Source: Chloroflexota bacterium
GTDB lineage: Bacteria > Chloroflexota > Dormibacteria > Dormibacterales > Dormibacteraceae
Assembly (NCBI GenBank): GCA_005881025.1
Contig: VBFO01000006.1
Location: forward strand, 1-49,886
Reading direction: 5' to 3'
DNA: 49,886 nucleotides
The notes beneath the pieces are model-generated. The model did no database searches and was not told the DNA's origin. It saw only the letters and a list, made by a program, of their open reading frames with translations. Below, piece after piece: positions 3,403 to 43,894 of the stretch. Both the position numbers and the translations under genes were made by a program. How positions within the stretch are numbered: the first letter of the stretch is position 1; the number at the start of each line of letters is the position of its first letter.

Positions 3403-4740
3403 CTAGCTGGACAGGATTCCGGCGACCGCGCCGAGTGAGCGCAGCACCGGCGCCGCGATGCCGGTGTGACGCGCGGGCTCGAGCACCGCTCCTGGCAGCG
3501 TCGCCGCAAATGCGTCGACGGCTTCCGCGTCCCACTGGGTTCCTCGGCCGCGCATCAGCTCAGCCAGCGCGACGCTTTGCTCGAGCGCCGCGCGATACGG
3601 CCTGTCCGATGTCATCGCGTCCCACGCGTCGGCGACGGCCATGATGCGGGCCCCGAGCGGGATGGCGGTCCCGGAGAGGCCGCGAGGATAGCCGCGGCCA
3701 TCGATTCTTTCGTGGTGCGCTAGCACCAGCTCGCGGCCCTGGCGGTACTCCGGAAACTTGGCCAGGATCTCGGCTCCAGTCTCCGGATGCATCTTCATGA
3801 GCGCGAACTCTTCGTCGGTCAACCGCCCGTGCTTGTGGAGCACCTGGTCAGGCACCGCGATCTTGCCGAGGTCGTGAACACGAGCCGCGAGGCGGATCAG
3901 CTCCACCTCACGCTCGGGGAGATGCATCTGCCTGGCGATTCGCACCGAATGCGAGGCGACGCTCTGCGAATGCTGGAATGTGTAGGGGTCGCGACGGTCG
4001 ACCACGTCGGCCATGGACTCCACCGCTGCCAGCGTCTGCTCGCGCATCTGAACTGCCCGCTTCAGCGAGAGCTGGAGACCGGCCAGAGGCGCCATCATCA
4101 CCAGCGCCAGCCACGGGTGATCGCCTGAGATCACCGCGAGCAGATATCCCGCCGAGTACAGGGCTGCTGTCTGCTTCAGGTCCACGCCCGCTGCCTCGGC
4201 CCACACCTGGAACGGGCTGCGCTGGGTGTTCAGCGCCGCAGCGACCACGACCAGCGTCGTATTCACGACGTACATGGCCACCGCTGCCGCTGTTGCGGCG
4301 AGGAACAGACCGGCGCCGTCGGCGTCGCGCATCGCGGCGGCGACTCCCTGGAAGATGACGGCACCAGCGGCTGCCGCCACCATCAGCTGTCCTGCGTTGA
4401 AGACGAGGTCGATCGGGATGCGCCGCCGCGTTCCCGTGGCGGGGTTTCGCCGTATGCAGAGCGCGCCCTCACCGATGAGCCTGCTGAGGCCGATCAGCGC
4501 CACCGCCGCCGCGGGTGGGAACACGACCACGATCGCGAGCTCGATGGCCGGCGTGGCGTCTGCCTTGTAGCTCTTCGTCACCATGACCGGAAAGTTCGCT
4601 GCGATCGCCCCGAGCCCTACCAGCACTGCGGCCAGGATTGGGTCCGCCTGGGTGTGCGACGGCAGCCGCAGCAGCAGCATCGCGACCGCTGCTGCGGGCG
4701 CAGCCATGGCGAGGAGGTACAGGCGGAGGCTAAGCCTCAC
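3403..4740 (-). CDS. Membrane-anchored HD-GYP domain protein
   Basis: Hydrophobic N-terminal half; HDLGK and HHERIDGRGYPRGL HD-GYP motifs; GTG start at 4740 preferred over the upstream extension, 8 nt after the preceding gene. Confidence 0.85.
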   Translation of the reverse strand: MRLSLRLYLLAMAAPAAAVAMLLLRLPSHTQADPILAAVLVGLGAIAANFPVMVTKSYKADATPAIELAIVVVFPPAAAVALIGLSRLIGEGALCIRRNPATGTRRRIPIDLVFNAGQLMVAAAAGAVIFQGVAAAMRDADGAGLFLAATAAAVAMYVVNTTLVVVAAALNTQRSPFQVWAEAAGVDLKQTAALYSAGYLLAVISGDHPWLALVMMAPLAGLQLSLKRAVQMREQTLAAVESMADVVDRRDPYTFQHSQSVASHSVRIARQMHLPEREVELIRLAARVHDLGKIAVPDQVLHKHGRLTDEEFALMKMHPETGAEILAKFPEYRQGRELVLAHHERIDGRGYPRGLSGTAIPLGARIMAVADAWDAMTSDRPYRAALEQSVALAELMRGRGTQWDAEAVDAFAATLPGAVLEPARHTGIAAPVLRSLGAVAGILSS

Positions 4741-35817: not shown

Positions 35818-36480
35818 GTGGCGGAGTCCAGGGTCCTGGGACTGCTCGTCGTGACGCGCGACCAGCCGGGAGTGTTCTACCGGGTGGCGGAGGTGATCTT
35901 CCGCCACGGCGGGAACATCGAGTACATCGCCGGCGGATCCGGGCGGGATCAGGAGGCCGAGCTCCAGCTCGAGGTCTCGGGCACCGCGGACGAGCATGAG
36001 CTTGTGCCTGAGCTCGAGGCTGTTGAGGGCGTCACCAGGGTCAGCCTGGTGCCGACCTTCCAGCGCATCTTCGGCAAGCGCGTCATCGTCATTGGAGGAG
36101 GCGCCCAGGTGGGCATGGTCGCGCAGGGCGCGGTCTCGGAGGCCGATCGCCACAACATCAGGGGAGAGCGCATCTCGGTGGACACCATTCCGCTGGTGGG
36201 GGAGGATCAGCTGGCTGACGCGGTGCGAGCCGTGGCGCGTCTGCACCGCGCCCGCGTGCTGGTGCTCGCCGGAGCGCTCATGGGAGGAGACATCTCCAAC
36301 GCCGTCCGCGAGATTCGCGAGGCAGGGATCATCGTGCTGTGCACCAACATGGCCGGCTCAGTGCCCGACGCCGCGGACCTTGTGGTCAGCGACCCGGTCG
36401 AAGCCGGCGTGATGGCGGTCATGCTCGTGGCGGATACGGCGAAATTCTCGATCGAGCACGTTCGCGGCCGACGATTCTGA
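35818..36480 (+). CDS. ACT-domain protein with DUF5612-like C-terminus
   Basis: VLGLLVVTRDQPGVFYRVAEVIFRHGGNIEYI ACT-type N-terminus; GALMGGDISNAVREIREAGIIVLCTNMAGSVPDAADLVV. Confidence 0.7.
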   Translation: MAESRVLGLLVVTRDQPGVFYRVAEVIFRHGGNIEYIAGGSGRDQEAELQLEVSGTADEHELVPELEAVEGVTRVSLVPTFQRIFGKRVIVIGGGAQVGMVAQGAVSEADRHNIRGERISVDTIPLVGEDQLADAVRAVARLHRARVLVLAGALMGGDISNAVREIREAGIIVLCTNMAGSVPDAADLVVSDPVEAGVMAVMLVADTAKFSIEHVRGRRF

Positions 36481-37123
36481 AAGGCAGCTCGAGCACCGCG
36501 AATATCACCCCTGCCAGCAACGCCGCCCCCACGATGTACCAGGGCCATGGTCCCAACAGGTCGAGCACGTTGCTGCCAGGCGGCACGCTGCGCAGGAACA
36601 GGTAGTTGCCGTTCGTCAGCAGGTTGGCGAAAGCGTCAAGGACGAGCAGACCGACGCTGAGCCCGAACACACGCACCGCCGCCCACTGGCGGGGGTAGAT
36701 CCGAAGCCCAACCACCAGGAACAGGGCAGCGCCGGGGATGGCCGCATGCTGGATGAAGTACTGGAAGAAGGGGTAGGTGGGGAAGTGGTCGCCGATGTCC
36801 GGCGTCAGGACCCCGTTGGCGGTGCCGGCGATGCCCCAGAAGTAGGTGAGCTCGACGAGCAGCTGCCGGCGCGTCCACAGTGCCGCCACCGCGATGAGAG
36901 CCGCGACGTCACACAGGTGGAGCGGCAGGTCGTTCTGCAGGTTGAAGACACCGTCCCACCACTCCACGGCAAACCAGCTGATCTCGTTGACGGCGATCAG
37001 GATCGCCAGCGCCCGCGCAGCCGGGACCGTCCACGCGCCCGGGCGCATGCGAGCGGAAGTCACAAGCACCGTGATGACGGCCGCGCTTACGGTGACGGTG
37101 AGGATGTGCTCGAAGGAGAACAT
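36419..37123 (-). CDS. TIGR02206/YwaF-like integral membrane protein
   Basis: LQNDLPLHLCDVAALIAVAALWTRRQLLVELTYFWGIAGTANGVLTPDIGDHFPTYPFFQYFIQHA. Confidence 0.8.
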   Translation of the reverse strand: MFSFEHILTVTVSAAVITVLVTSARMRPGAWTVPAARALAILIAVNEISWFAVEWWDGVFNLQNDLPLHLCDVAALIAVAALWTRRQLLVELTYFWGIAGTANGVLTPDIGDHFPTYPFFQYFIQHAAIPGAALFLVVGLRIYPRQWAAVRVFGLSVGLLVLDAFANLLTNGNYLFLRSVPPGSNVLDLLGPWPWYIVGAALLAGVIFAVLELPFRIVGRERARSRISPYPPRA

Positions 37124-37133
37124 CAGCGGAGGG

Positions 37134-38585
37134 TTATCGTGCGACAGGCACGCTTCCGGCGAACTCGCTCATCTCGTCGATGCGCTCGGCGACCAGCTGA
37201 AACCCCCGCTGGAGGCGGCGGTAGAAGGTGGGGCGGGAGAGGTGCAGGCGCTCCATGATCACCTCGTGGCTGCCTACCTTCTTGACGTAATAGTCGAGCA
37301 GCAGGCGTCCCGCTTCGGCGTCTCTTGGCTGGGATGATGCCGCCAGCTCGCTGATCACGTCGACGAGCACCGCGCGCAGGTTTGCGGCCGCCGACCCGCT
37401 GCCCTGGGCCACGCCTGGCAGCCCGCCGAGTGGGCTGCGGCCAAGCGCCTCCGGGGTGCCGAGGTCGTCTAGCGCCGCTCGCACGAGCTGCGGCCGGACG
37501 GTGCTGGCCGGGTCGCGTGTCCACCTGATCTCATTGCGGATCTCCACGGCGACGGGCATGGCTGGGATCAGGGGCGCCACCATCGCCGCGGGCAGGCCGG
37601 CTCGCAGCAGCCTGCCCATAAGCCAGCAGAGCATGATGCAGGCCAGGACCGCGCCCGACCAGAGGGATCCGCCCCAGACAGTGCCGTCGAACAGGATCCG
37701 GCCCATGTAAGCAAGCGCGAATGCGCCACCGATGACCGCACACAGGGATGCCGAAGGGCGGCCGGGCCGGCGCGCAGACCACGCGATCCACGCATCGGCG
37801 GCGAGGCCGGTGATGAACAGCACCGGTACGTACGACACGTGCAGCTTGGTGATGGTGACGAGAAGACCGTGGACCGTGAACACGAAGGTGAGCGATCCCG
37901 GTCGGAGCTTGAACCCGCTGTTCAGGAGCAGCCCCGCGCCCGCGAGGATCAACGACTGAGCCAGCAAAGCAGCCACGCCCACGTTCTTGCCGACCCAGCT
38001 CGGTGTGCCGGCGGGAACCGCGTACTGTGCCGACGCCCATGGATCGATCAGCGGGTGGACGAACTGCAGGGCAAAGGTCAGCACCGACAGCAGCAGCGAC
38101 GCCGACAGCAAGGTCACGACGCCCGCCGTTGTCTCGCCGCGGCGTGCGGCCGCGCGCAGCGGGCCGCTCACCATCACCGCGGCAGCGGCCATCTCGATCA
38201 GGCGTGGTGGAGTGAGCAGGGCATCCAGGCCCACCGCGTCTGGTCCCACCACGCCCTTCGCCCAGTAGCCGTTGTCCACGATCCAGGCGGCGCCGAATAT
38301 GAGCGCAGCGCCAAGCGATCCGATGTACCCGTCGGGAAGGGCGCGATCCCAGGGCTTCCCGGCTCTGAGCCCGGCCCCGAATCCGGCGAACAGAATGGCG
38401 GTGGCTGCAAGCCAGGCGGCAAGGACTATGCCGTAGCCGACGTTGGCGACCGCGTCGATCCGGTTCGGTTGGATCACGTACGCGTAGGAGGTGATGTACG
38501 CACCCAGCACAAGCGCCCCCATCAGGGCCGCCACCACCGCGTCGAAAACGCGAGGATCGGCCACCAAGCTTCGCGCCGACCTCAT
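37134..38585 (-). CDS. Polytopic membrane protein with C-terminal helix-turn-helix
   Basis: 483 aa; many hydrophobic segments then VKKVGSHEVIMERLHLSRPTFYRRLQRGFQLVAERIDEM. Confidence 0.7.
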   Translation of the reverse strand: MRSARSLVADPRVFDAVVAALMGALVLGAYITSYAYVIQPNRIDAVANVGYGIVLAAWLAATAILFAGFGAGLRAGKPWDRALPDGYIGSLGAALIFGAAWIVDNGYWAKGVVGPDAVGLDALLTPPRLIEMAAAAVMVSGPLRAAARRGETTAGVVTLLSASLLLSVLTFALQFVHPLIDPWASAQYAVPAGTPSWVGKNVGVAALLAQSLILAGAGLLLNSGFKLRPGSLTFVFTVHGLLVTITKLHVSYVPVLFITGLAADAWIAWSARRPGRPSASLCAVIGGAFALAYMGRILFDGTVWGGSLWSGAVLACIMLCWLMGRLLRAGLPAAMVAPLIPAMPVAVEIRNEIRWTRDPASTVRPQLVRAALDDLGTPEALGRSPLGGLPGVAQGSGSAAANLRAVLVDVISELAASSQPRDAEAGRLLLDYYVKKVGSHEVIMERLHLSRPTFYRRLQRGFQLVAERIDEMSEFAGSVPVAR

Positions 38586-38620
38586 GCCGGGCCAAACATA
38601 CTCGCGGCGGCCTGCATTTT

Positions 38621-38664
38621 TGAGACCAGTTTCGAGACCGAGCTGAGACTGGCTGTGAGACCGG
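38621..38664. promoter_or_regulatory. Four phased direct repeats (TGAGACCRG iterons)
   Basis: GAGACC/T cores at 38622, 38634, 38645, 38657 (spacing 12, 11, 12 bp) in a divergent intergenic region. Confidence 0.75.
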
Positions 38665-38718
38665 ATCTGCAGAACATCGGTGGCGTTCCGGCCACCAGTT
38701 GCTCAGCAGGAGGATCCC

Positions 38719-39480
38719 ATGGCCATCAATCGCGAGTTCGACAGCATCGTGACCGTCGAGCCGCCCCCCGACGGGGCAGCGCCCGTATACCCGGAAGCCC
38801 TGAGTGCGGCCATTGCCGAGCCGCAAGCGATCCCGCAGACCGCGTTCCCAACATTCATCGAGCCTGTGGCTTCGGCGCCCGAAATCATGGTCGCGCCGGT
38901 TGCGCCGCGACAGGCGCGTAGGCGCCCGAGGTGGGTCGTGCCATCGGCCATCGCTGCCGTTGGACTCATCGCGTCAGGCACGCTCGGCTACTTCCTCTAC
39001 ACGACCAACTCGGAGCTCAACTCGACCAGGCACCGGCTCGCGGTGACCCAGCAGACGCTGGAGACCACCCAGCACCAGCTGGCCGACGCGAAGCTTGACC
39101 TCGCCACCAGGCAGCAGATCGAGAGGTACGTCTACCTCGTGACCGCAGACGCAGGCAAGGTCAACGTGGACTACAACCAGGTCGAGCTCTGTGACAGCTA
39201 CAGCACGTGCCGGTTTGCCGCGCAGGCGGCGCTGACCGACATGCAGTCACTTCAGACCGACCGCCACTCGCTGGTCGTGCCGGTTGACCTCGCCAACGCA
39301 GACAGCCAGCTCGGTGACAGCTTGAGCGCCGGCATCGCGGCGCTTCAGGAGCTCATCAGCGGGATGGACACCGACAACGTCAGCAAGATCAGGGATGGAT
39401 TCAAGAAGCTGGAAGGCGCGATGCTGACCATGTCCAAGGCCGAGGTCGTGCTCGGTTCAGAGCTCAGGCAGCAGGCGTGA
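38719..39480 (+). CDS. Single-pass membrane protein with coiled-coil region, unknown function
   Basis: Pro-rich N-terminus, TM WVVPSAIAAVGLIASGTLGYFLY, then a coiled coil; GCAGGAGGATCCC upstream of ATG. Confidence 0.7.
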   Translation: MAINREFDSIVTVEPPPDGAAPVYPEALSAAIAEPQAIPQTAFPTFIEPVASAPEIMVAPVAPRQARRRPRWVVPSAIAAVGLIASGTLGYFLYTTNSELNSTRHRLAVTQQTLETTQHQLADAKLDLATRQQIERYVYLVTADAGKVNVDYNQVELCDSYSTCRFAAQAALTDMQSLQTDRHSLVVPVDLANADSQLGDSLSAGIAALQELISGMDTDNVSKIRDGFKKLEGAMLTMSKAEVVLGSELRQQA

Positions 39481-40238
39481 CCTTCCGTATCGGACGTATC
39501 GCTTCAATGGCGGCGGTGGCGCTCATCGTGGGCGCCGCCGGCGCCGCGGCCGGACTCGAGTGGCGCGCGAGTGCAGGCGAGGCGCAGACGCTTGCGTCGC
39601 AGACAAGAACCATCAACCACCTTCAGGATGAGGTCAGCTCGCTCGAGAGGTTTCTCTCCTCGCATCCTGAGTGGAGCGCTGTCGCGGACCGCGTGGAGCC
39701 GTCTGTGGTCACGGTCGAGACGGACGATGATCTCGGCTCCGGCTGGGTCGCGCACGCAGACGCGGGCGGATCCGACATAGTCACGAACTTTCACGTGGTC
39801 GAGTCCGCATATGCGGTCGGGGTCCGGTCGGTGGAGGTGTTTCACTTCGACCAGGAGCTGAAGGGCACCATCGTGCGCGTGGACCGAACCGATGATCTCG
39901 CGGTGGTTCATGTCAGCGAGCGTCTGCCGGCTCTGACCGCTGTGACAGCCAGGCCGAAGGCGGGCACCTGGGTGATGGCCGTCGGCGCACCGTTGGGCTT
40001 GAGCCAGTCGGTGTCGGTGGGCGTGATCGCGGCGTATCGCAGCATCGAAGGCAGCGATTACGTTCAGTTCACAGCGCAGATCAGCCCCGGCAACAGCGGC
40101 GGTCCAGTCACCGACCAGCAGGGTCGCGTGGTCGGCATCGCCACCGGCAAGCTCGTATATCCGGGATCCGAGGGTCTGGGTTTTGCGATCCCTGTCCAGA
40201 CCGCTTGCGCGAGCCTCGTCGCGTGCGAGCAAGCTTGA
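39477..40238 (+). CDS. Trypsin-like (S1C/HtrA-like) serine protease, membrane-anchored
   Basis: VTNFHVVES, DDLAVVHV, QISPGNSGGPVTDQQGRVVGIATG catalytic triad motifs; 4-bp overlap. Confidence 0.85.
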   Translation: MTFRIGRIASMAAVALIVGAAGAAAGLEWRASAGEAQTLASQTRTINHLQDEVSSLERFLSSHPEWSAVADRVEPSVVTVETDDDLGSGWVAHADAGGSDIVTNFHVVESAYAVGVRSVEVFHFDQELKGTIVRVDRTDDLAVVHVSERLPALTAVTARPKAGTWVMAVGAPLGLSQSVSVGVIAAYRSIEGSDYVQFTAQISPGNSGGPVTDQQGRVVGIATGKLVYPGSEGLGFAIPVQTACASLVACEQA

Positions 40239-41716
40239 GCGCGGTGAGCACCACGGCCAGAGCGACGCTGGAGCGGCCGGCCGCGCCGGCCCGGTCGCGC
40301 ATGGGTCTTGGCCGGCTGCTGTCGATCAACTCGATGTGGTTCGGGCAGGGCGCTCACTGGCCGCCGATCACATTCATCCTCGTGCCCGCAACCGCCGTGC
40401 TCATCGCGGGCAAGTCCGCGGACCTTCTCATCGGCAACGTGAGCGCGGCGGGCAACGTGTTCGCGCTCATTGCGCCGATCCTGGCCGGCTGGTTGAGCGA
40501 CAGGACGAGCACACGGTGGGGAAGACGGCGTCCCTGGATCGCGGCCGGCACCCTGGTGAATCTCGCGGGCATCGCCCTGCTCGCCTTCTCCGGTTCCCCG
40601 CTTTCGTTCGCCCTGGCCTACATGCTCGTCCAGCTGACCTTCAATCTCGCGGGCGGCGCTTACGCGGCGGTCATCCCTGACGTCGTGCCGGAGCAGGATC
40701 GTGGCCGGGCATCCGGACTGCTGGGCATGATGAACGCGCTCGGGGCGGTGCTCGGCCTGGCCGCGGTCACGGGCGCGGCGGCGCTGTTTCACGGCCGCAC
40801 CGCGATCGTTGTCGGCTACTCGGCCGTCGCAGTCATCCTGCTGGTGACGACTGTCATCACCCTGGTCGCGGTGCGCGAGCCGCCGGCAGGTGCGCGCCAC
40901 GAGTCAGCGCAGCTGAATCCTCGCGTCAGCCTGGTGGCGGGCCTGGCAGCTCTGGCGGTCGCAGCGTGGATCGCCTACCTCCTGATCCCTGCCGGTCGGT
41001 TCACGATGGCGATCGCCCTGACGGGGGCTGCCGCGGCCGTGCTGACCGTGTTGATCGCGATCAGAGAGCCGGCGATCACTGGCTTCTTCGCCGCCTTCCG
41101 CAGCCGCGACTTCTTCTGGACGTTCGCCACGCGGGCGCTGGTCATGATGGGCATCGCCACCATCCAGCCCTGGCTCGGCCTGTACTTCAAGGACGTGCTC
41201 GGACGTCCCGACTGGACCACGCTTGCAGGCCTGTGGGGGCTCACCTTGCTGGGCGGTGCGATTGTGCCTGGGGTGGTCGGCGGCCACCTCTCCGATCGAA
41301 TCCACCGCCGGAAGCCTTTCGTCTACATCGCGGGAGTGGTGATGGGGCTTGTCGCCTCGGTTTTGCTCTTCGGCCTGCTGCGCAACGTCGCCCTGATCTT
41401 CGTGCTCGGCTTCATCTTCGGAATCGGCTACGGCCTGTACGTGGCCGTGGACTGGGCGCTGGCGTGCGACGTGCTGCCAGACCGCGAGACGTCGTCAGGC
41501 CGGGACATGGGCCTGTGGCACATCGCCTTCACCCTGCCGCCGGCCCTCGCGCCGGCGCTCTTTGCGCCGATTCTGCACATCTTCAATGCCTCCGGTCATG
41601 TGGTGCTGGGCTTGACGACAGGTGATTTCCTCGGCTTCAGGCTCGTCTTCGCGGGCGCTGTGGTCTGGTTCGTGCTCGGGACGTTCTTCGTCAGCCGCAT
41701 CCGAGGCGTGCGCTGA
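40235..41716 (+). CDS. MFS transporter
   Basis: AGWLSDRTSTRWGRRRPWI and GGHLSDRIHRRKPFVYIAG loops, ~12 TM; TTG start overlapping the upstream stop. Confidence 0.88.
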   Translation: MSAVSTTARATLERPAAPARSRMGLGRLLSINSMWFGQGAHWPPITFILVPATAVLIAGKSADLLIGNVSAAGNVFALIAPILAGWLSDRTSTRWGRRRPWIAAGTLVNLAGIALLAFSGSPLSFALAYMLVQLTFNLAGGAYAAVIPDVVPEQDRGRASGLLGMMNALGAVLGLAAVTGAAALFHGRTAIVVGYSAVAVILLVTTVITLVAVREPPAGARHESAQLNPRVSLVAGLAALAVAAWIAYLLIPAGRFTMAIALTGAAAAVLTVLIAIREPAITGFFAAFRSRDFFWTFATRALVMMGIATIQPWLGLYFKDVLGRPDWTTLAGLWGLTLLGGAIVPGVVGGHLSDRIHRRKPFVYIAGVVMGLVASVLLFGLLRNVALIFVLGFIFGIGYGLYVAVDWALACDVLPDRETSSGRDMGLWHIAFTLPPALAPALFAPILHIFNASGHVVLGLTTGDFLGFRLVFAGAVVWFVLGTFFVSRIRGVR

Positions 41717-41761: not shown

Positions 41762-42406
41762 GTGTCCGCGTCTATTCTTTGGCGGGGGTTGAGCAGGAGG
41801 CCCGACGATTCAGACCTCGCCGCGCTCAAAGCCGGTGACGAGGCAGTGTTTCAGGCGCTGGTGCAGCGCTATCACGGGCCTCTCATGAGACTCGCCGTCG
41901 GTTACGTGCGCGATCGCTCGGCCGCGGAGGACGTGGTGCAGGAAACATGGCTGACCTGCTTGCGCAGCCTGGATCGCTTCGAGGGCCGGTCGAGCCTCAA
42001 GACGTGGATCTTTGGCATTGCCCTGAACGTGGCCCGAACACGCCGCCGCAAAGATGCCCGCGTGCTTCCTTTCGCTTCTCTCTTCAGGCGGGACGATTCC
42101 GACTCGAGCGCGCCGACGGTCGACCCGCGGCGATTCGGGTCCGAAGGAAAGTGGAGGACACCACCTGACGATTGGAGCAACGTGCCGGAGTCGCATGTGC
42201 TCAGCCGCGAGACGCTCGACCGGGTGAGAAGCGCCATCGACAGGCTGCCGCCGCGCCAGCGCGAGGTCATCATCCTTCGCGACGTCGCGGGCTTCGACGC
42301 GCAGGCGGTGTCAGCCGTGCTGGCGATCACTCCCGAAAACCAGCGGGTGCGGCTGCATCGGGCACGCGCCGCCGTACGCAAGGTGCTCGAGGAGTACCTC
42401 CGATGA
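41762..42406 (+). CDS. RNA polymerase sigma factor, ECF (sigma-70 family)
   Basis: VRDRSAAEDVVQETWLTCLRSLDRFEGRSSLKTWIFGIALNVARTRRRK and IDRLPPRQREVIILRDVAGFDAQAVSAVL; start could be TTG 41789. Confidence 0.9.
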   Translation: MSASILWRGLSRRPDDSDLAALKAGDEAVFQALVQRYHGPLMRLAVGYVRDRSAAEDVVQETWLTCLRSLDRFEGRSSLKTWIFGIALNVARTRRRKDARVLPFASLFRRDDSDSSAPTVDPRRFGSEGKWRTPPDDWSNVPESHVLSRETLDRVRSAIDRLPPRQREVIILRDVAGFDAQAVSAVLAITPENQRVRLHRARAAVRKVLEEYLR

Positions 42407-42642
42407 TCTGCCGTGAGGTTGTGGAGCTGATGACCGACTACCTCGATGGTGCCCTCTCGCAAGAGGATCGGGCGCGGTTTGAAGACCACATCGCTGGATG
42501 CAACGGATGCACCGCTTATCTCGAGCAGCTGCGGCGAACACGCAGCGTGATCGGCCGGCTGGCGGCCGAGCCGGTGCCGGCCGGCCTGGAGGCCGAACTA
42601 CTTTCGGCGTTCAGGTCCTGGCGGTCAGGACCTCGTCCGTAA
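42403..42642 (+). CDS. Anti-sigma factor-like zinc-finger (zf-HC2) protein
   Basis: CREVVELMTDYLDGALSQEDRARFEDHIAGCNGCTAYLEQL; ATGA overlap with the sigma gene. Confidence 0.85.
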   Translation: MICREVVELMTDYLDGALSQEDRARFEDHIAGCNGCTAYLEQLRRTRSVIGRLAAEPVPAGLEAELLSAFRSWRSGPRP

Positions 42643-42730
42643 CGCCCGAGACGCATCGACGCACTCAACCTCCATGCGGCCCTCGATTCGTGCACTGGCA
42701 GGGCCGCTGGTTTCAAGGAGGAGCTTTACG

Positions 42731-43894
42731 GTGCGAACAGTATTGCGATTGGCATCGGCGGTCGGGCTGATGGCGGCGGTCGTGGCGGGAACATCGATTG
42801 TCGCCAGCGCTGCGGGGAGCACGACCCACGTTTACGTAAACGACAACACGAAGGGCACGAACACCATCGCTGCCTTCTCGCGTGCGGCCGACGGAACCCT
42901 GACGCCTCTTGCCGGCTCACCGTATGTCGCGGGCGGCGCCGGGACTGGCGTACTGATCGGATCGCAGGGGGCACTGCAGACCGCCGCCGGCGGCCGTTAC
43001 CTGCTGGCGGCCGACGCCGGCAGCAACCAGGTGTCTGTGCTGCGCATCGGGCCTGACGGATCGCTCAGGGCGGTCGAGGGGAGCCCGTTCTCGTCCCGCG
43101 GAATCCGGCCGATCAGCATCGCGGTCCACGGCAACCTCGTCTATGTCGCCAACTTGGGCGATGGCGCCTCCGGCAGCAACTACACGGGCTTCAGGCTCAA
43201 CCCCGAGGGGAGGCTCATCGCGATCCCCGGGTCGACCTTCTCGCTTCCCAACACCGCCAACCCCGGCGACATCCTCTTCAACTCGACAGGAACCAACCTG
43301 ATCGGCGTCGAGGTCGGAACAGGTGATTCGAGCACCTGGCTGATCGACAGCTTCACAGTCAGCCCCAACGGACGGCTGATCCCCGCAACCGGATCGCCGT
43401 TTGCCGCCCAGTCGGCAGGTCCGTTCGGCAGCGAGTTCTCGCCGACGAACCCCGCCCACCTGTACGTCTCCAACGCCCACGCCGGCGGCGCCAACGGAAC
43501 CGTGTCGGCGTTCAGCGTCTACCGGAGCGGAGCCGTTTCTTCCATCGGCGCGTCGCCTTATGCCGACGGCCAGACCGCCCCTTGCTGGGTCGAGATCACC
43601 CACGATGGAAACTTTCTATTCGCGGTCAACACCGGCAGCACGACTCTTTCCAGCTACGCCATTCAGTCCGATGGCTCGCTGCAGCTGATCGGCAGCACCG
43701 GGTTCAGCAGCGGAACCGGCATCAGGCCGTTTGACGCTCGCCTCGACCCCTCCGGCTCGACCCTCTACGTCGTCGACGCGGCGCTTGACGCCGTAAGCGC
43801 GTTCGCCGTCAGCGGAGGTTCTCTGACCGAGCTTCCGCAGTCTCCATTCGCACTTCCCTCCGGTGCGACCCCGTTCGGGATCGTGGCGGCCTGA
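42731..43894 (+). CDS. Secreted beta-propeller protein (6-phosphogluconolactonase/YVTN-like)
   Basis: Signal peptide; repeated VSAFSV/YVSNAHAGG/GSPF propeller blades; GTG start with GGAGG upstream. Confidence 0.8.
   Translation: MRTVLRLASAVGLMAAVVAGTSIVASAAGSTTHVYVNDNTKGTNTIAAFSRAADGTLTPLAGSPYVAGGAGTGVLIGSQGALQTAAGGRYLLAADAGSNQVSVLRIGPDGSLRAVEGSPFSSRGIRPISIAVHGNLVYVANLGDGASGSNYTGFRLNPEGRLIAIPGSTFSLPNTANPGDILFNSTGTNLIGVEVGTGDSSTWLIDSFTVSPNGRLIPATGSPFAAQSAGPFGSEFSPTNPAHLYVSNAHAGGANGTVSAFSVYRSGAVSSIGASPYADGQTAPCWVEITHDGNFLFAVNTGSTTLSSYAIQSDGSLQLIGSTGFSSGTGIRPFDARLDPSGSTLYVVDAALDAVSAFAVSGGSLTELPQSPFALPSGATPFGIVAA

Follow-up and report, generated by a model that had tools for sequence, protein, structure and literature searches.

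A phased four-copy GAGAC array as the likely operator of an activator-dependent promoter beside a membrane-HTH gene in Dormibacterota

At promoters of the PhoB/OmpR type (the pho box), direct repeats spaced about one helical turn apart replace the −35 element and lie approximately 10 bp upstream of the −10 element. Among the classical proteins of envelope stress are PspA and proteases of the HtrA type. SARP promoters carry direct repeats 11 bp apart, with the downstream repeat 8 bp from the −10 element and the afs box overlapping the −35 element (PMC10936776). At the afs box of Streptomyces, the activator AfsR contacts region 4 of sigma (PMC10936776). In the relevant passages of its main text, a 2024 survey of PSP systems names PspF, ClgR, LiaRS, and PadR-type regulators; these passages contain no regulator of the membrane-HTH type and no mention of Dormibacter (PMC11237479).

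The Dormibacterota are a little-known group of soil bacteria, and our literature search found no relevant publication on a GAGAC motif or on PSP control in this group. Here, we analyze a 49,886-nt stretch of DNA (the window) from a genome that belongs to the Dormibacterota, a class within Chloroflexota, as indicated by its named relatives. The window contains four phased GAGAC repeats between a minus-strand gene for a membrane protein with a helix-turn-helix (HTH) and a plus-strand operon. From sequence comparisons, we consider it likely that this array is the operator of an activator-dependent plus-strand promoter, that it is most likely bound by the divergently encoded membrane-HTH protein, and that it controls a small envelope-maintenance regulon. 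Features of the locus are listed in Table 1.

Table 1. Features of the GAGAC array, the flanking genes, and the predicted promoter elements in the window
Feature	Position	Strand	Basis or remark
Four-repeat array, complete, TTTGAGACCAGTTTCGAGACCGAGCTGAGACTGGCTGTGAGAC	38619..38661	+	Predicted activator binding site; exact repeats, conserved in 21 genomes
Repeat 1, GAGAC	38622..38626	+	Distal to the plus-strand promoter
Repeat 2, GAGAC	38634..38638	+	Most variable copy in relatives (GANAC)
Repeat 3, GAGAC	38645..38649	+	Followed by conserved TG (GAGACTG); at the −35 position
Repeat 4, GAGAC	38657..38661	+	Promoter-proximal
Predicted −10 hexamer GAACAT, plus-strand operon	38672..38677	+	10 bp after repeat 4
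Predicted transcription start zone (near 38684)	38683..38686	+	From the −10 position; coincides with the ATG in leaderless targets
Ribosome-binding site AGGAGG, plus-strand gene	38708..38713	+	Sequence
−10-like element TATGTT, regulator gene	38595..38600	-	21 bp from the array; TATGGTT/TATCGTT in most orthologs, with or without an array
Candidate regulator, multi-TM with C-terminal helical putative DNA-binding domain	37134..38585	-	ORF; AF2 model; co-occurrence and linkage with the array
C-terminal domain, ~110 aa, sigma-region-4-like in the predicted structure	37170..37499	-	AF2 pLDDT 92.9; Foldseek
Helix-turn-helix SHEVIMERLHLSRPTFYRRLQR, most conserved part	37203..37268	-	Alignment A1; AF2 helices 440-447 and 451-478
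Coiled-coil protein, single TM, no known family; first target gene	38719..39480	+	Conserved neighbor
HtrA/DegP-type trypsin-like protease, membrane-anchored, no PDZ seen	39477..40238	+	PF13365 2e-25; TIGR02037 6e-35, below its cut-off
MFS transporter, start codon uncertain	40205..41716	+	PF07690 3e-29

The array and its spread among related genomes

The sequence-only reading had located four direct repeats at spacings of 12, 11, and 12 bp, and the positions it gave for their cores proved exact. We searched for the array as GAGAC-N7-GAGAC-N6-GAGAC-N7-GAGAC, with up to three mismatches allowed. The window contains a single match, which has no mismatches, and none was found in 100 dinucleotide shuffles. 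Pairs of GAGACC are common in the same genome (~290 matches per strand at two mismatches); therefore, the meaningful signal is the four-copy phasing and not the GAGACC word. Exact GAGACC pairs on two other contigs of this genome (C64 and C66) fall inside coding sequence and were set aside as chance matches.

A first pattern search in 101 relatives detected arrays in 16 genomes, and a refined pattern applied to 110 genomes of the class detected 48 arrays in 20 genomes; the reversed-pattern control gave no match in either search. With a relaxed pattern, three more arrays, whose spacing is shifted, were picked up in G009 and G010; this brings the total to 51 copies in 21 genomes, all from one family of Dormibacterota. 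When the first gap was made one base longer, the control pattern matched four times in 400 genomes across the phylum, and none of these matches was a true array. The window genome carries three arrays: the copy in the window, one on contig C47 (13142-13184), and one on contig C126 (41452-41494).

Orthologs of the minus-strand HTH gene were detected in ~20 genomes of the same family, encoding proteins that are 60-74% identical. Every ortholog that is divergent from the coiled-coil gene and has upstream sequence available carries the array in the orthologous intergenic region, with the same spacing; the absence that the sequence-only reading had named as a refutation was thus not observed. Several genomes of genus g9 have two arrays, one on either side of the HTH gene. 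In relatives, plus-strand repeat 2 (the third copy when the minus strand is read) has drifted to GAAAC or GACAC. Only a decayed version with 12/9/12 spacing was found in G017, where it lies (L117, ~1444) between the HTH gene and a TMEM164-family gene. A gene for a TMEM164-family membrane protein (36419-37123, minus strand) is also located directly downstream of the HTH gene in the window.

The repeats could in principle be a chance arrangement or act at the RNA level, for instance as a leader hairpin, and an 8-bp stem (CCAGTTTC/GAGACTGG) can form within the array. However, RNA folding of the array region is no more stable than that of shuffles (z −0.33), the pattern is missing from shuffled and reversed controls, and transcription is predicted to start only past the array. 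The conservation data refute such a reading, which we regard as vanishingly improbable. The broader earlier proposal, that helically phased repeats serve an activator-type promoter as its operator, is supported by the conservation of the array.

Promoter layout and downstream genes

A scan for promoter and terminator consensus elements returned nothing, including no consensus −35 element in either direction, which agrees with the earlier observation that the minus-strand gene has no recognizable −35. We aligned the 29 distinct arrays at their 3′ ends. A hexamer of the form nAnnnT follows the last repeat in all 29, at a distance of 10 bp in 3 cases and 11 bp in 26, whereas at most 8 of 29 had such a hexamer at this spacing in shuffles; these hexamers are weak, and the motif test that identified them used the same 29 arrays. 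The TG that follows repeat 3, the copy that occupies the −35 position, is almost invariant across arrays. In the window, the predicted −10 and start are located upstream of the ribosome-binding site and of the ATG at 38719. Several other targets (L100, L097, L098, L102, L103, and L105) have their ATG 23-24 bp past the last repeat. Because this places the ATG at or beside the predicted transcription start, these targets look leaderless. In G034 (L088, ~4080-4120), the secreted-protein target may be preceded by a leaderless upstream reading frame of 11 codons (MSRFKSDKKRE).

For nearly every array with enough downstream sequence, a reading frame begins within ~140 bp in the GAGAC direction. Many of the downstream genes encode secreted, membrane, or PspA proteins. 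They include the coiled-coil/HtrA-like protease/MFS operon, pspA operons, and three families of small secreted or membrane proteins, as well as genes for an acyltransferase-domain protein, a DegT-type aminotransferase, a B12-radical-SAM-like protein (named from the appearance of its sequence only), and large proteins of unknown family. Arrays lie directly upstream of pspA in about ten relatives (PF04012, 5e-24 for the copy in G018, L114), and pspA was not detected in the window genome. Apart from PspA and the HtrA-like protease, the majority of target products look secreted or membrane-bound. Judged by the types of target, the array-associated genes suggest an envelope-stress regulon. Every array has its predicted −10 on the side toward which GAGAC reads, which makes the plus-strand operon the most likely main target at the locus in the window. 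Directly downstream of its MFS gene are genes for an ECF-type sigma factor and then a zf-HC2 anti-sigma-like protein (41762-42642, plus strand), followed by a lactonase-like beta-propeller gene (42674-43894). An identity as replication iterons of a plasmid or phage was rejected for the repeats, as the arrays stand at a fixed distance from a −10 before many unrelated genes and no rep gene was seen among the adjacent genes.

The absence of a −35 and the presence of a −10 just after the repeats suggest that a bound activator recruits RNA polymerase. We propose that the array is the operator of a promoter reading rightward into the coiled-coil/HtrA-like protease/MFS operon. Four protein copies, presumably one per GAGAC repeat, would bind along a single helix face. 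The promoter-proximal pair of repeats would thereby cover the place of the missing −35, with the weak −10 GAACAT 10 bp further on, and the bound activator would recruit RNA polymerase. The same activator may control a small envelope-maintenance regulon, including pspA in relatives, in response to what may be an envelope-stress signal.

A repressor that blocks RNA polymerase at the plus-strand promoter would also work from a site covering the −35 and part of the spacer, as the array does. We nevertheless consider repression improbable: promoters with no recognizable −35 and weak −10 hexamers would need help rather than blocking, and the fixed 10-11 bp between the repeats and the −10 suits a protein in contact with sigma.

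The sequence-only reading had instead tied the array to the minus-strand gene, as a substitute for its missing −35. The TATGTT it described on that strand is present, and most orthologs have TATGGTT or TATCGTT. At loci with divergent genes, this conserved element is separated from the array by 20-22 bp (10 loci) or 10 bp (2 loci), two distances that differ by about one helical turn, so autoregulation is possible there. As the main function of the array, with activation of the HTH gene itself read toward 38585, autoregulation is very improbable. The conserved −10 is on the opposite side in 29 of 29 arrays, and arrays away from the HTH gene lack TATGGTT on the side corresponding to the minus-strand gene. 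Moreover, five HTH-gene orthologs have a different upstream gene and no array there, yet most of them keep a TATGGTT-like element. In these five, the array is located ~2.7-3 kb away, directly before a PspA/IM30 gene that is convergent with the HTH gene. The assignment of the array chiefly to the minus-strand gene is therefore not supported, and activation of the plus-strand operon is the reading we favor.

The candidate regulator

Hydrophobic segments span residues 8-349 of the protein encoded at 37134..38585 and are followed by the C-terminal HTH. The AlphaFold 2 (AF2) model has a mean pLDDT of 79.9 for the whole protein and 92.9 for the C-terminal domain. In a Foldseek search with the C-terminal domain, the best matches were to ECF sigma region 4, with a probability of 0.98 but a weak E-value of 0.76; a search with the full-length model returned nothing informative. 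Sequence searches with the C-terminal domain against Pfam, NCBIfam, and PDB gave nothing above threshold. Judged from their sequences, distant relatives of the HTH domain in other Chloroflexota are fused to ATPase-like or response-regulator proteins. Other genera have homologs of the membrane half that lack the HTH domain (L034, L035, L036, and L037). In G001, G014, and G029, membrane-half homologs adjoin homologs of the coiled-coil gene, which suggests a conserved sensor pair.

Arrays occur only in genomes that encode the membrane-HTH protein of the window or its putative DNA-binding domain. Within the family, 20 of the 23 genomes that encode the HTH domain carry the strict array, against 0 of the 19 that lack the domain (Fisher P = 3.5e-9, phylogeny ignored). 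This contrast repeats within genera g9, g10, g11, and g12 (G009 versus G019; G010 versus G020 and G024; G021 versus G011; and the g9 genomes versus G023).

An HTH-domain gene lies within 6 kb of 30 of the 51 arrays. These linked arrays include three loci of HTH paralogs that are 36% identical and loci in G021 and G039, where the HTH domain sits in other, smaller proteins; a locus of a solo HTH domain in another genus is among the linked ones. Two further paralog loci (G017:C207 and G038:C383) have no nearby array. At loci where the HTH gene has no array before it, one still stands ~3 kb away at pspA, so linkage is not simply a consequence of the HTH gene being a target. A short, apparently soluble HTH-domain frame in G039 (C273, 2423-2755, minus strand), on a contig with a three-mismatch array, may be a solo regulator. 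In G005 (L109, 1362-4430), the same or a related HTH domain ends a 1022-aa STAND/AAA-like protein whose gene directly precedes an operon containing two pspA-like genes; this locus has no GAGAC array and no convincing repeats of a different family.

Co-occurrence and linkage make the adjacent membrane-HTH protein, which the sequence-only reading had raised as a possible regulator, the best candidate, and the array is probably regulated by this protein. If so, its sigma-4-like HTH domain would act while anchored in the membrane. The same two lines of evidence could also make the HTH protein a partner rather than the DNA-binding regulator. The array would then be bound by another protein encoded elsewhere, for instance an OmpR/PhoB-type response regulator or a SARP, with the membrane-HTH protein as a linked partner or sensor only. 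OmpR-type regulators are the main rival. The promoter geometry fits that described for SARPs (PMC10936776). However, the SARP domain BTAD (PF03704) was not found in the window genome (G000, 87% complete), and it was likewise undetected in two other array-bearing genomes (G015 and G021) but present in many array-less ones, which makes a SARP regulator unlikely. SARPs were rejected as the best candidate because the distribution of BTAD across genomes does not correlate with arrays. In addition, no other regulator was seen to recur beside arrays, whereas the HTH domain does, in ~20 genomes, at paralog loci, and in a solo form. We therefore judge control by another regulator to be unlikely and retain the membrane-HTH protein as the probable activator.

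Significance and comparison with described systems

What sequence comparison establishes is the array, its phasing and polarity, the spacing to the predicted −10, the members of the putative regulon, and the co-occurrence and linkage with the regulator gene. These define a candidate regulon, complete with operator, promoter layout, and a named candidate for its regulator, in a group for which hardly any transcription control is known, and they tie pspA and an HtrA-like protease to what may be a new type of membrane regulator. They also supply a functional hypothesis for an unannotated putative DNA-binding domain that recurs across Chloroflexota. Through the proposed regulator-operator link, a single protein and a single 43-bp site would suffice for a direct test of envelope-stress control in Dormibacterota. 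Tentatively, the protein may represent an undescribed class of membrane-embedded activator, in which a multi-helix sensor tethers a sigma-region-4-like domain and four phased GAGAC sites replace −35 recognition. Such a protein might be the master switch of a Dormibacterota envelope-stress regulon (pspA, HtrA-like protease, and secreted proteins), and the same domain might serve again, across Chloroflexota, in STAND-type ATPases and response regulators.

Like SARP promoters, the arrays consist of tandem direct repeats ~11 bp apart over the −35 position at a fixed short distance from a weak −10, here 10-11 bp in all 29 arrays. They differ from SARP promoters in having four repeats at 12/11/12 spacing with the core GAGAC, and their candidate regulator, a membrane protein, has an HTH domain of a different, sigma-4-like type. 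The layout likewise resembles that of PhoB/OmpR promoters, in which repeats about one turn apart take the place of the −35 approximately 10 bp before the −10, but the candidate regulator lacks a receiver domain and an OmpR winged helix.

The predicted fold of the C-terminal domain is similar to ECF sigma region 4 (e.g., the domain of an M. tuberculosis sigma factor, PDB 3hug). In contrast to an ECF sigma factor, the protein has no sigma region 2 and no Sigma70_r4 match, and the domain is covalently linked to a membrane domain. The similarity is thus confined to a region-4-like fold, and no sigma family was matched.

With hydrophobic segments and a C-terminal HTH domain predicted to bind DNA in one chain, the protein has the makeup of a one-component membrane regulator. 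It shares with transmembrane regulators of the ToxR/CadC class the combination of a membrane domain and a DNA-binding domain in one polypeptide (PMC10269533). ToxR and CadC have an N-terminal OmpR-type winged helix and a single transmembrane segment, whereas the candidate regulator has many transmembrane helices and a putative DNA-binding domain that is C-terminal, all helical, and without a Pfam or NCBIfam family match, which places it outside that class. Finally, the system resembles described PSP systems (PMC11237479) in that the putative targets of the array in relatives include pspA operons, which lie beside the regulator gene, and in that the operon in the window includes an HtrA-like protease.
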